Below, piece after piece: positions 17,750 to 32,195 of a stretch of 64,000 nucleotides of DNA (position 1 is the stretch's first letter; each line of letters starts with the position of its first letter). The stretch spans positions 62,001-126,000 of the forward strand of contig CATKHK010000021.1 in the NCBI GenBank assembly GCA_949751835.1. The letters are read 5' to 3'. The stretch comes from Blepharisma japonicum (taxonomy: Eukaryota; Ciliophora; Heterotrichea; Heterotrichida; Blepharismidae). Made by a program: the position numbers and the translations under genes. The notes beneath the pieces are model-generated. The model saw only the letters and a program-made list of their open reading frames with translations, was not told where the DNA came from and searched no databases.

Positions 17750-18202
17750 ATGTCAGCCTCAATCAGAAGAATCATGAAAGAAATTAGGGATGAAAAAAAT
17801 CTTAATGAAGCTGGAGTTAGCTTTTGGCCAAATGATGAAATCGATATTTATAATTGCACTGGAGTGATTATAGGTCCTAAGAATTCTCCTTACGAAAACG
17901 GAATGTTTTTCTTAAACGTTAAATTTAGTAGTGAATATCCTTTTAAGCCTCCAAAGGTTACATTCAAGACGAAAATTTATAACCCTTGCATCAATTCTAG
18001 AGGAGAAATATCTGTGGATATATTGAGCGATCAATGAAGCCCTGCTCTCACAGTGCATAAAATTTTATTAGTAATTCAAAGACTTTTAACAGATTTTTAT
18101 GTAGATGATCCACTTGTTCCAGATATTGCACGCCAATATAAGTATTATCGCAAAAATTATGATTGCACAGCAGAGGAATGAACATCGCTCTTTGCTAAAT
18201 AA
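17750..18202 (+). CDS. E2-like (UBC fold) protein 1, copy A; active-site Cys absent
   Basis: 150 residues, ATG 17750 to TAA 18200, with TGA as Trp in DQ-W-SPAL and EE-W-TS. It aligns end to end with UBE2D-type E2 enzymes: RRIMKEIRDE helix, CTGVIIGP, PYENGMFFL, YPFKPPKVTF, DILSDQWSPAL, DDPLVPDIARQY. The HPN motif reads NPC and the catalytic Cys position (GSICLDIL in UBE2D) reads GEISVDIL. As in every member of this array, ubiquitin thioester chemistry at the usual site is impossible; the Cys at the HPN Asn position is the only nearby thiol. E3-contact features (YPF, SPAL) are kept. It belongs to the most diverged of the subgroups here. Confidence 0.85.
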
Positions 18203-18818
18203 TAAATCCGGATAAAATAATTTATAAAATTTAATGATTAATCTAAAAATTACAATTTATCTTAAATCTAGCTTAATAGAAACATTTTAGCACATTTTAT
18301 TTATCCCAAATCAGTGGTTTATTGAGTTGTTTTTTATTTATAATTTTGATATGAAAATCTTAATAAGATTTTTATTCTGGGAAAAGAACTTTGTTTGCTT
18401 TTCATACTCTATATTCTATGACTGCTCTGATGGGAATAAAGTATATTTAAAAATAATCATTCTCTCATCAATCCATTTTCACAAATAATCTCTGAAAATT
18501 TGCCAAATTGGCTGAAGTTAGCTCTAAAGCGCTCCTATAATTAGGAAATAAAAATCTGCCGAATTGTGGCATTATTATAGCTCCTCCACTTTAATAATAA
18601 TTATTATTTGCCTTCCGTTTTATGGCACTTTCCTTGCTAGTATTTTTAAAAGAAATGATAAATCTCTGTTTATAGCTTTGAGATCCCAACCAGGGATAAT
18701 TTCTATATTATAGGCGCGCTAGACTATAGTTTCCTGATCGATATATAGCATAACTATAGTCATAAAAATAATGCAGTTTTAAGTTATTTATCAATTAATA
18801 AAAATATACATAATTAAG
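18203..18818. other. Spacer between E2-like genes 1 and 2
   Basis: 616 bp, largely conserved in copy B (26929-27592), including a palindromic site near its 3' end. No coding frame was seen. Confidence 0.55.
18722..18761. promoter_or_regulatory. 10-bp perfect inverted repeat upstream of E2-like gene 2
   Basis: GACTATAGTT (18722-18731) and AACTATAGTC (18752-18761) flank a 20-bp spacer containing the palindrome GATCGATATAT, 58 bp before the start codon. Copy B keeps it at 27497-27536 with one arm mismatch. It could be a protein-binding site or an RNA hairpin. Confidence 0.4.
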
Positions 18819-19268
18819 ATGTCAATTAGAAGAATCATAAAAGAAATCAATGATGAGAAAAATTGCTATCATGAATTTGATATTGGTTTTTGGCCTAATA
18901 ACCATGATGATGTTTTTAGTTGTACAGGGGTGATCATGGGCCCTAAAGACTCTGTTTATGAAAATGGATTGTTTTTCCTAAATATTCAATATCCTGAAGA
19001 CTATCCTTTTAAGCCACCAAAAATTGCATTCATAACCAAAATTTATAATCCTTGCATCAATTGTGTAGGAGGAATATCTTTGGATATATTAAAGAACCAA
19101 TGATCTGTATCCCTAACAATGCCTAAAGTTTTATTATCAATTCAAAACCTGATGCTAGAGTTTGATGTAAATTCTCCGCTTGTTCCTGAAATTGCTTATC
19201 AATATAAATATAACAGATCTAAATATGACTCTATAGCAAGAGAATGAACAATACTCTTTGCTATGTAA
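18819..19268 (+). CDS. E2-like protein 2, copy A; active-site Cys absent
   Basis: 149 residues, ATG 18819 to TAA 19266, intact frame. TGA gives Trp in NQ-W-SVSL and RE-W-TIL. The HPN position reads NPC and the active-site position reads GGISLDIL. It differs from gene 1 in the N-terminal loop (DIGFWPNNHDD) and ends REWTILFAM, close to the REWTQKYAM end of UBE2D. A run of AT-rich leader ending in aattaagATG is shared with paralogs. Confidence 0.85.
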
Positions 19269-19701
19269 TTAGTTCTAATATTTATTTTACCAAATTAATT
19301 AAAATATGTTTTAATGGTAAATCTAAAAATATATTTTAATTTAAATAGTAGATTTGACTTAAAATTATGATAAATAGAATTGTAATTAGAGTTATTTGCT
19401 GATTTAAAACTAAAACAAAGAAGATCTTATATTTTATTTTTTGATCCAAAATATTTTGCTCTAATACTTTTTAGAGGTCCTTCATCAGCATGGCATTTTA
19501 AATTGTTAAAACTCTTTTAAATGCTTTTTGAGCAATTCAACGCTTCTTTATTTAGATTTCTATAACTCTTCACAAGTCTTTCAATTGCTATTCTTTTCAT
19601 GTCATTTTTCTTTGTTAATTAATGATGGCTATTGATAAGATCTTAATAGATTTAGTATTTTTAAATTATTTTATTAGTTATAATAAAAATTATAGATAAA
19701 T
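19269..19701. other. Spacer between E2-like genes 2 and 3
   Basis: 433 bp, matched in copy B by 28039-28414. It ends in the leader attagttataataaaaat...gata that precedes most E2-like start codons here. No gene was seen. Confidence 0.5.
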
Positions 19702-20153
19702 ATGATGCCAACAATCAGAAGAATCATAAAAGAAATCAACGACGATAAACACTGTCATGACTTAAATTTTAGTTTTTGGCCTAATAATTCTGGAGATATT
19801 TTTAGTTGTACAGGAGTGATCATGGGTCCTAAAGATTCTGTTTATGATGGTGGAATATTTTTCGTAGATATATATATCCTCAGGACTATCCTTTTAATCC
19901 GCCAAATATTACATTCATAACCAAAATTTATAATCCTTGCATCAATTCTAAAGGAAACATATCTGTGGGTATATTAGGTAGTGAATGAACTCCTAACCTA
20001 ACAATGTCTAAAGTTTTAGTATCAATTCAAAGCCTGTTGCTTGATTTTGATGTAGATTCTCCACTTGTTCCTGAAATTGCTTATCAATACAAATATGAGA
20101 GATCTAAATATGACTGTACAGCAAGAGAATGGACAGCACTCTTTGCTATGTAA
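19702..20153 (+). pseudogene. E2-like gene 3, copy A; one-base frameshift
   Basis: It matches the intact copy-B gene at 28415-28867 along its whole length. After FFVDI the DNA reads gatatatatatcc where copy B has gatattcaatatcc, a net loss of one base, so the frame runs into a stop at 19918. Beyond it the original frame is open to TAA 20151 with NPC, GNISVGIL and SEWTP in place. A single lesion means a recent break or an assembly error in an AT run. Confidence 0.75.
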
Positions 20154-30051: not shown

Positions 30052-30098
30052 ATAGCTCAAATATTTATTATACTAAAAGAAAATAAATGTGAAATAAA

Positions 30099-31427
30099 TT
30101 ATTTTGAACTCCAATTTTCGTATTTTTCGATATCCCTTTTGTTCTCCCCAGTATATCTGGATGCCGAAAAAGCTTTTCTAAAATCCTCCATGCTTATTCT
30201 TAAATCATCTTCTTTTATACTCTCAATTGATTTTCCTTGACTTTCAATTTCTTTATATATTTCTCTCGCCGGAATCATCATTGCATCTCTACACACAGTT
30301 AATATATTTGATGTTATAAAATTTTGACTTTTAAACACCAAATAATCTCAATCAATATCCACACTAAGCAAGCTATTTGCTAAAAAGACTTCAAAAAGTT
30401 TTCTTCTATTTACCTCATTAGGCAAGGGCAGATAAATTTTCTTTTCAATTAGACTGATAAAATTATGATTGATTTCCCAAGGAGTGTTTGTTATAAAAAT
30501 TATATTTATTGTTTTTGAAGAATGTTCGGATTCAAAAACATTATGAATTTGCTTTAAAATTGCATTTTGAAGCTTTCTATAAAGCTTAAATTGCTGATTT
30601 GTTACTTTATTAATATATTCAAAATCATCAAAACATATTATAGAAGGAGCATAAAATCTAGCTATATCAAATAATAATTTTACAAGTTTTTTGCTTCCCC
30701 CTTTTCATTTAGATATTAGTGCCGATGAACAAATATTAAAAAAAGTTCCACCACCCATTTTTGAAGCTTCTGATACAAGCATTGATTTTCCGCATCCAGG
30801 TGGACCATATATCAAAATTCCTTTATTAGGTCTTCGAGTGTGTAATTCTGGCATAAGTGAAGGAAGCACTATCGTTTCATAGAGAAATTCTTTTGCATCA
30901 TCAAGACCTATAACATCATCTAAACAAAATTTATTAGATGAATCAATTATGCATTCTTCGATTTGGCGAATTAATATCTCATCTAAGCTCAAAGTATCGG
31001 AAATGCTTTCTCTATAAGAGATTCTTTTTTTCAGTGGTAAAATTGAATCCAAATAATCATTAAAGACTAGATCTTCTTGCTTATTAGTATTCCTCTGTAC
31101 TTTTTCAGCATTGTTTATCAAATTTCCAATTTCATAATTATTTGCGTCTACAGTGCCTACAAATGTAGGAAGGTTTTGGGTTTTTACTAATGGTTTAAAT
31201 CTTCGTAGTGATAATTGAGCTTTCTTGACTGTTGTGCATTCTTTTATTAAATTATTTTTTATGTTATCTCATTTTATAATTTGATGATCTTCGGCTGAAG
31301 TGTCTGATGCTGATATTGAATTTATTAAAGAAACACTTTGTTCATATAATGTTATAGATTCTGGATAAAAACCTAAAATTGCATAATCTCTAGCTGACTC
31401 TACAATAAGACACAGCTGTTCTATCAT
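30099..31427 (-). CDS. MIT-AAA katanin-p60-like protein type 1, copy B
   Basis: 442 residues, ATG 31427 to TAA 30099, intact. The MIT domain is at about 1-75 (LIVESARDYAILGFYPESI) and Walker A GPPGCGKS at about 208-215. The katanin pore loop is SKWKGGSKKL (Trp from TGA), followed by LLFDIARFYAPSIICFDDF, which matches the katanin block ...FYAPTTIFIDEID except that the Walker B Glu is Asp. Sensor 1 is IIFITNTPW. The arginine fingers are missing (ISLIEKKIYLPLP). The C-terminus has the LSxEDFxKA-type helix (RISMEDFRKAF) of the Vps4/katanin family. Likely a nucleotide-binding, hydrolysis-poor katanin relative; partner unknown. Confidence 0.82.
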
Positions 31428-31748
31428 TTATTTATTTTAATTATTTTTAATTCTAGTAGTTAACTCAAATTATCAAATGAAATAAAAATTTTTATTAATT
31501 AATGAGTACATTTAGGCTTATATTCATTTCATAATATCTTCAAAAAGATTGAAATTTTAGCCAATATTTTGAATCTTATTTTGAATAGAATTACTATAAA
31601 TATCTCTATTCAGCTCAAATAAATGGGAAATTATCTATATGCTAAATTTAGAATTTTATAATACAGACCTTTTTAATTATTTCAGAAATACTAAAAGATG
31701 GGTAGTAATAAATTTTCAATTAATTCAGCTTATTAAAATTATAAACTA
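31428..31748. other. Spacer between AAA type 1 and E2-like gene 6, copy B
   Basis: 321 bp between divergent genes, matched by 24001-24277 plus about 40 extra bases. Likely holds both promoters. Nothing else was seen. Confidence 0.5.
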
Positions 31749-32195
31749 ATGCCATCAATGAGAAGGATCATAATAGAAATAAATGATGAAAAAGTATTAT
31801 ATCATAAACTTGAAGTTAGTTTTTGGCCTAATAATCCTAACGATATTTATAACTGCACAGGAGTAATCATTGGTCCTAGAGTCTTAGTTTATGAAAACGG
31901 GATTTTTTCTTGGGTGTTCAATATACTTAAGACTCCTTATAAACAACCAAAAATTAGGTTATAACGAAAATTTATATTATTGCATCAATTCTGAAAGACA
32001 AATATCTATCGATATCCTTGGGAATGATTGAAATCCTACTCTCTCAGTGCAGAAAGGTTTAATATCAATTCAAAATCTAATGCTAGAATTTGATGTAGAT
32101 TCTCTATTTGCTCCAGAAATTGACATCAATACATAATTGATAGAGGCAGATATGACTATACAGCAAGAGAATGGACAAATCTCTTTGCTACATAA
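31749..32195 (+). pseudogene. E2-like gene 6, copy B; broken
   Basis: Starts MPSMRRIIIEIND and keeps FWPNNPNDIYNCTGVIIGP, then loses frame in the FFLDIQ region and carries several more indels. The Cys of the NPC motif is still encoded (tgcatcaattct). Broken independently of, or in addition to, its copy-A partner. Confidence 0.75.

Follow-up and report, generated by a model that had tools for sequence, protein, structure and literature searches.

An array of E2-like genes in two duplicated blocks

The window analysed here, a 64 kb stretch of the Blepharisma japonicum genome (contig CATKHK010000021.1, positions 62,001 to 126,000 of the forward strand), contains an array of eleven genes resembling the ubiquitin-conjugating enzymes (E2s) of the UBE2D/Ubc4 type, each of them on the + strand. 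They span 17750 to 32205 and are labelled here by type (A to F) and order of occurrence. The copies were located by tblastn with the protein of copy C2 as query and TGA read as Trp (matches from 17765 to 32189), and the same query at E 0.01 found no further E2-like copy in the window outside the array. A preliminary description of the locus had taken the products to be full-length UBE2D-type proteins, and this was borne out: all five copies scanned (A1, B1, C2, D and E1) matched the Pfam family UQ_con (E 6e-40 to 2.9e-30), and UBC sequence is retained to the C-terminal end of the products. Among the best 60 of 310 PDB matches of C2 (E 4e-44 and weaker), a Toxoplasma E2 ranked first, with Ubc4 and UBE2D next.

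The array comprises six types, of which A, B, C, E and F occur twice and D once. Self-comparison of the window matched 17610-20677 to 26337-29378 at 89.7%, and 21942-26200 to 29366-33645 at 92.4%, delimiting a first block at 17610..26200 (order A B C D E K F L, with K and L the katanin-like genes described below) and a second at 26337..33645 (A B C E K F L), from which D is absent. Because one segmental duplication doubled five of the six types, the eleven copies are not independent witnesses; all eleven genes of the preliminary description are present, but their independence was overstated. Among the nine pairs of inverted repeats listed, none convincingly marked the blocks as a mobile element. 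Two CCCTAACA words (19111 and 27884), sought as telomere repeats, fall within the coding sequence of the B copies and were attributed to chance.

Six of the eleven copies retain an open full-length frame: A1 (17750..18202), B1 (18819..19268), D (21406..21858), E1 (22171..22626), C2 (28415..28867) and the second copy of type E (29599..30051). Three others are frameshifted, C1 (19705..20153) and B2 (27593..28038) once each and A2 (26480..26928, start approximate) near its 5' end, and both copies of type F are heavily decayed pseudogenes with approximate limits, F1 (24280..24735), which carries a stop and frameshifts, and F2 (31749..32205). All rest on tblastn, joined by open reading frames (ORFs) for A1, B1, D and both E copies, by Pfam for the five scanned copies, by alignment for A1, B1 and C1, by self-comparison for D and by the PDB search for C2. 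Small indels, and not 15/16-nt insertions, interrupt A2, B2 and C1, so tiny introns were rejected as the source of these breaks; sequencing or assembly error could conceivably lie behind the broken copies.

Reading TGA as Trp is supported by the array itself, because two invariant Trp columns (Trp26 and Trp144) are encoded by TGG or by TGA depending on the copy; column 96 is TGA in eight of the eleven. Counts of ORFs of at least 250 amino acids (11 under the standard code, 23 with TGA as Trp, 36 with TAA/TAG as Gln) did not discriminate between codes. In Blepharisma stoltei, UGA encodes Trp and introns are 15/16 nt long (PMC9942806).

Residues lost and gained at the active site

Residues are numbered by UBE2D positions, assigned through alignment of the eleven copies to Ubc4. 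The catalytic Cys at position 85 is Ser in nine copies and Leu in the two E copies, and the Asn of the His-Pro-Asn (HPN) motif at position 77 is Cys in all eleven, encoded by TGC throughout. At position 75, the HPN His is Asn in nine copies and Lys in A2, so that the motif reads NPC nine times and KPC once; F2 is unreadable in one frame here, although its Cys codon persists. Both the loss of the catalytic Cys and the gain of a Cys at the HPN Asn, down to the most decayed copy, had been noted in the preliminary description and hold on realignment; chance is no plausible source of the pattern. No gap separates positions 77 and 85, either in the alignment of the eleven copies to Ubc4 or in five PDB alignments of C2, which rules out that the Cys of NPC is the true active-site Cys moved by a loop change; the thiol was therefore replaced and not shifted.

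The changes extend beyond these two sites. Every copy also has a second derived Cys, in place of UBE2D Trp33, and Asn114 is absent from all of them. The CES/D site, which is Ser or Asp in active E2s and is taken, like the E2 fingerprint, from PMC4604453, holds Asp in two copies, A1 among them, Ser in five, Tyr in three and a gap in one, with neither Asp nor Ser in D and E. Ile88, Leu97 and Trp141 are retained in all eleven copies, and Asp87 and Pro61 in ten. According to PMC6349121, Ile88, Asp87, Asn77 and Asn114 contact the tail of the donor ubiquitin, the Asn77 of UbcH5B through a hydrogen bond.

Structure prediction, which had been proposed as a way to measure the position of Cys77, yielded no distance: the two AlphaFold2 models had mean predicted local distance difference test (pLDDT) scores of 59.5 and 54.9, falling below 50 at positions 77-81 and 74-83, and are too poor for Cys geometry. 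Foldseek placed UBE2D and Ubc4 at the top with the first of these low-confidence models (template modelling score ~0.52), a result of little weight. Judging by the order of the strands, the two derived cysteines are unlikely to form a disulfide.

Nine copies carry Ser85 and might be supposed to bind ubiquitin in a stable oxyester, acting as its carriers or traps in the manner of the Cys-to-Ser E2s used as oxyester traps in the laboratory. We consider this very improbable, however, as both E copies are open and have Leu85.

Compared with UBE2D and yeast Ubc4 (class I E2s), the copies share the full-length UQ_con domain, the spacing of the two sites and Trp141, Ile88 and Leu97, but lack Cys85, His75, Asn77, Trp33 and Asn114 throughout, and C2 is about two residues longer after helix 1. 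They resemble the ubiquitin E2 variants (UEVs; UBE2V/Mms2 and the UEV domain of TSG101) in having a UBC-type domain without catalytic Cys or HPN, as is also described for Leishmania UEV1 (PMC7647121); unlike UEVs, they are closest by score to UBE2D and have a Cys at the Asn site. Neither UBE2V nor TSG101 appeared among the best 60 of 310 PDB matches of C2, which were of UBE2D/Ubc4 type wherever named (a ranking by score). The HPN Asn is also replaced, or the motif absent, in UBE2W, which has His at this site (PMC3778709), and in UBE2J and UBE2Q, which have no HPN (PMC10971424, PMC9527308); in contrast to the copies described here, these enzymes keep a catalytic Cys. The preliminary description knew of no E2 family with this swap, and likewise none, nor any such array, was found in the literature searched (articles exclusive of supplements and preprints); the accessible parts of PMC9942856, PMC9630792 and PMC12105026 contained no case of it.

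Katanin-like neighbours and other genes of the window

Four full-length genes of katanin-p60-like MIT-AAA architecture are interleaved with the E2-like copies on the - strand: K1 (22675..24009), which has an in-frame stop, and the open L1 (24811..26100), K2 (30099..31427) and L2 (32258..33547). Each is the convergent neighbour of an E2-like gene, K1 and K2 of the first and second E copies and L1 and L2 of F1 and F2, with less than 80 bp between the members of a pair. They were recognised from their ORFs, with alignment (K1, L1 and L2), Pfam (L1 and K2) and a PDB search (K2). Of the two copies scanned against Pfam, K2 passes the cut-offs for both AAA and KATNA1_MIT (E 1.5e-5), and L1 exceeds that for AAA and falls just short for MIT, scoring 21.7 bits where 23.1 are required. 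Against the PDB, p97/CDC48 chains came first for K2 on two summed domains, whereas per single domain katanin scored higher (~174 vs ~101 bits).

In MIT plus AAA architecture these genes match katanin p60; they differ from it at the arginine-finger and Walker B positions. In K2 aligned with p97, Arg is missing from both finger positions and Asp stands in place of the Walker B Glu, and the other three full-length copies, aligned with K2, likewise lack the finger Arg and the Walker B Glu (DD or DH); Walker A is retained. All four full-length AAA proteins are thus predicted from their residues to be inactive, so that two families of predicted dead enzymes are arrayed together. Beyond the second block lie a fragment of a third L-type AAA gene (33639..34223, - strand; ORF and self-comparison) and, about 760 bp from it, a 5' fragment of an L-type gene (34986..35183, - strand; self-comparison). 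Within the intervening 34224-34985 is a stretch richer in GC that contains a 25-nt hairpin (34433-34493); it had no Rfam match to E 0.5, and its folding z-scores were -1.2 and -1.4 for the two strands.

A gene for an EGF/RING-H2 E3-like protein (16095-17450, + strand) lies immediately upstream of the array, and its RING is completed by removing a 15-nt intron at 17343-17357. Other paralogues occur further along the window. Two proteins of ~690 amino acids, 39% identical, are encoded tail to tail at 46892-48982 (+) and 49110-51182 (-), and neither matched a Pfam family at E 0.001. Two more pairs, at 55442-57280 and 59657-61333 (+) and at 54072-54716 and 57990-58682 (-), consist respectively of kelch-motif proteins (~30% identical over 303 columns) and of proteins 53% identical over 217 columns. 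The end of the window (63498-63995) is 93.4% identical to a part of the second kelch gene, 60379-60878, another local duplication that continues past the window end.

Selection, decay and the reading of the array

With moderate confidence, we interpret the E2-like array as a pseudo-E2 family that is specific to its lineage, descends from an enzyme of UBE2D/Ubc4 type, is UEV-like in action and is subject to birth-and-death turnover. The ancestor of the array would already have had Cys85 replaced, Asn in place of His75 and Cys in place of both Asn77 and Trp33, and the array would then have grown by tandem duplication and one segmental duplication, alongside the predicted inactive katanin-p60-like AAA family. 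The products lack the Cys of the normal E2~ubiquitin thioester and presumably form none. A non-catalytic role, as UEV-like adaptors or as competitors for E3s or ubiquitin, seems most likely because the UBC sequence is complete and residues of the ubiquitin-tail groove are kept (Ile88, Leu97 and, in ten copies, Asp87). Cys77 would then most likely be a derived structural residue of a dead active-site loop, in a pseudo-E2 family whose evolution may be relaxed and of the birth-and-death kind.

Past selection on the array is evident from a codon model of the eleven copies (150 codons, broken codons masked), the likelihood of which equalled that of iqtree. With one class of branches, the ratio of nonsynonymous to synonymous substitution rates (omega) was 0.55, and omega 1 was rejected (twice the log-likelihood difference, 2dlnL, 21.3), so that the ratio near 1 across all copies which the preliminary description would have read as decay was not found. 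On the deep branches omega was 0.48, again with omega 1 rejected (2dlnL 20.9); purifying selection there is established by this analysis, as are the residue losses and gains and the duplication history. Reading frames also appear to have been protected: the A, B, C and E pairs have accumulated 6 indel events in 1800 aligned bp, compared with 23 in 2351 bp of intergenic DNA (one-sided p 0.009) and 7 in 454 bp of pseudogene type F (one-sided p 0.007), with no difference between type F and intergenic DNA (p 0.20). These counts depend on the alignment and, as the base composition of coding DNA is not that of intergenic DNA, the fairer control is type F. At least one open copy remains of each type other than F, a pattern of reciprocal loss that is not significant by itself (0.57, calculated by hand, with three breaks among four pairs). 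In the interleaved AAA genes, omega is 0.44-0.46 between K and L, 0.56 between K1 and K2 and 0.76 between L1 and L2; indels are fewer than in intergenic DNA (3 events in 2601 bp for K and L together, p 1.5e-5), and substitutions between the blocks fall below the intergenic rate for K (51 in 1335 bp, p 0.04) and above it for L (97 in 1266 bp, p 0.007).

Several results weigh against a functional pseudo-E2 family. Five of the eleven copies are broken, three by frameshifts and the two of type F by heavy decay. On the branches that follow the block duplication omega is 0.71 and omega 1 is not rejected (2dlnL 2.7), and a two-class model gives no significant gain over the one-class model (2dlnL 2.4); modelled apart, open tips have an omega of 0.76 and broken tips of 0.66. 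Pairwise values, with wide intervals, are 1.06 for A, 0.34 for B, 0.76 for C, 1.48 for E and 0.98 for F, and only for the B pair does the bootstrap interval exclude 1 (0.14-0.87). Substitutions since the block duplication show no sign of constraint, the A, B, C and E pairs having 121 in 1800 bp and intergenic DNA 126 in 2351 bp (two-sided p 0.07, coding higher). The surfaces through which an adaptor might act are only partly kept. The RING-contact residues Phe62 and Ala96 remain in only six (Tyr in four, His in one) and five copies, and the equivalent of the backside Ser22 is Phe in all eleven, in a region of less certain alignment. With Pro61 kept in ten copies, Ser94 in seven and Pro95 in eight, the preliminary description was generous in calling the E3-contact parts mostly kept. 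Lastly, relatives outside the window were sought with the family profile in one scan each of viral_contigs and genome_contigs, collections of viruses and prokaryotes; patterns matched in 36 and 23 stretches, and no relative is encoded in any of them.

Much of this would follow if the array were simply decaying and largely functionless, with NPC fixed before the genes multiplied and shared by descent, and with the open frames merely unbroken as yet. Such a decay falls somewhat short of an even chance in our estimation and is nearly as likely as the pseudo-E2 family. Besides the five broken E2-like copies, one of four full-length AAA copies has a stop and a further AAA gene is in fragments; the branches since the duplication are compatible with omega 1, and the divergence of coding DNA has kept pace with that of intergenic DNA. 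The Cys codon persists in the dead type F, and its presence therefore needs no selection. Decay alone, however, sits poorly with the rejection of omega 1 on the deep branches, with the paucity of indels in A, B, C and E relative to type F and, to the limited extent noted above, with the open copy left to each of the other types. We read the data as purifying selection in the past together with protection of the frame, and little recent constraint on residues.

The preliminary description had gone further and suggested selection for a relocated thiol, or for a metal-related or structural role. In the relocated-thiol reading, Cys77, beside the C-terminal tail of ubiquitin, would replace Cys85 as a new nucleophile or act as a redox or regulatory thiol. 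The residue is present in all eleven copies with a single codon, and Asn to Cys requires two base changes and is therefore not a one-step accident. Since the Asn77 of UbcH5B bonds the donor ubiquitin tail (PMC6349121), a Cys there would be near it. Among the six type representatives A1, B1, C2, D, E1 and F1, the longest invariant run, the nine columns of TKIYNPCIN, surrounds it (permutation p 0.003). Over all eleven copies, however, the longest run is five columns (36-40) and starts at the other derived Cys, and canonical E2s conserve the Cys77 segment too, the changed residues excepted (PDB alignments of C2). Cys80 of C2, which corresponds to position 77, is one of 39 invariant columns out of 150, where ~20 would be expected at the average omega without rate variation, and the probability that one Cys column stays invariant, given a Cys ancestor, is 0.05 under omega 1, rising to 0.15 under the average omega of the family. 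The Cys at Trp33 is equally fixed; Asn114, another ubiquitin-tail contact, is lost in every copy, Asp or Ser is missing from the CES/D site of D and E, the E types have Leu85, recent branches are compatible with neutrality and the structure models are unreliable around Cys77. A thiol hypothesis would leave both the second derived Cys and the second dead-enzyme family unexplained, and we consider it improbable. Cys77 was fixed early and then retained, without evidence of selection for the thiol itself.

We regard the pseudo-E2 array as a real and unusual family, in which the pairing of two dead-enzyme families is more striking than the thiol swap. Beyond what had been described previously, the analysis adds the six types, the second derived Cys at Trp33 and the interleaved katanin-like genes. 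As a long shot, pseudo-E2s and pseudo-katanins could form one fast-turning module, inherited as the convergent pairs E/K and F/L, in which the UBC fold, with Cys77 at the groove for the ubiquitin tail, would serve not as an enzyme but as a sensor of the ubiquitin tail, or a thiol sensor, controlling a dead AAA ring. Known E2s without catalytic activity fall mainly into a few old families, UBE2V and TSG101 among them. If the pseudo-E2 reading is true, this lineage-restricted expansion of pseudo-E2s from UBE2D, with its two fixed derived cysteines and its setting among dead katanin-like AAA genes, would amount to a natural experiment on the evolution of a UBC fold that has lost its chemistry, and the array would allow a test of whether a thiol at the HPN Asn has a function.

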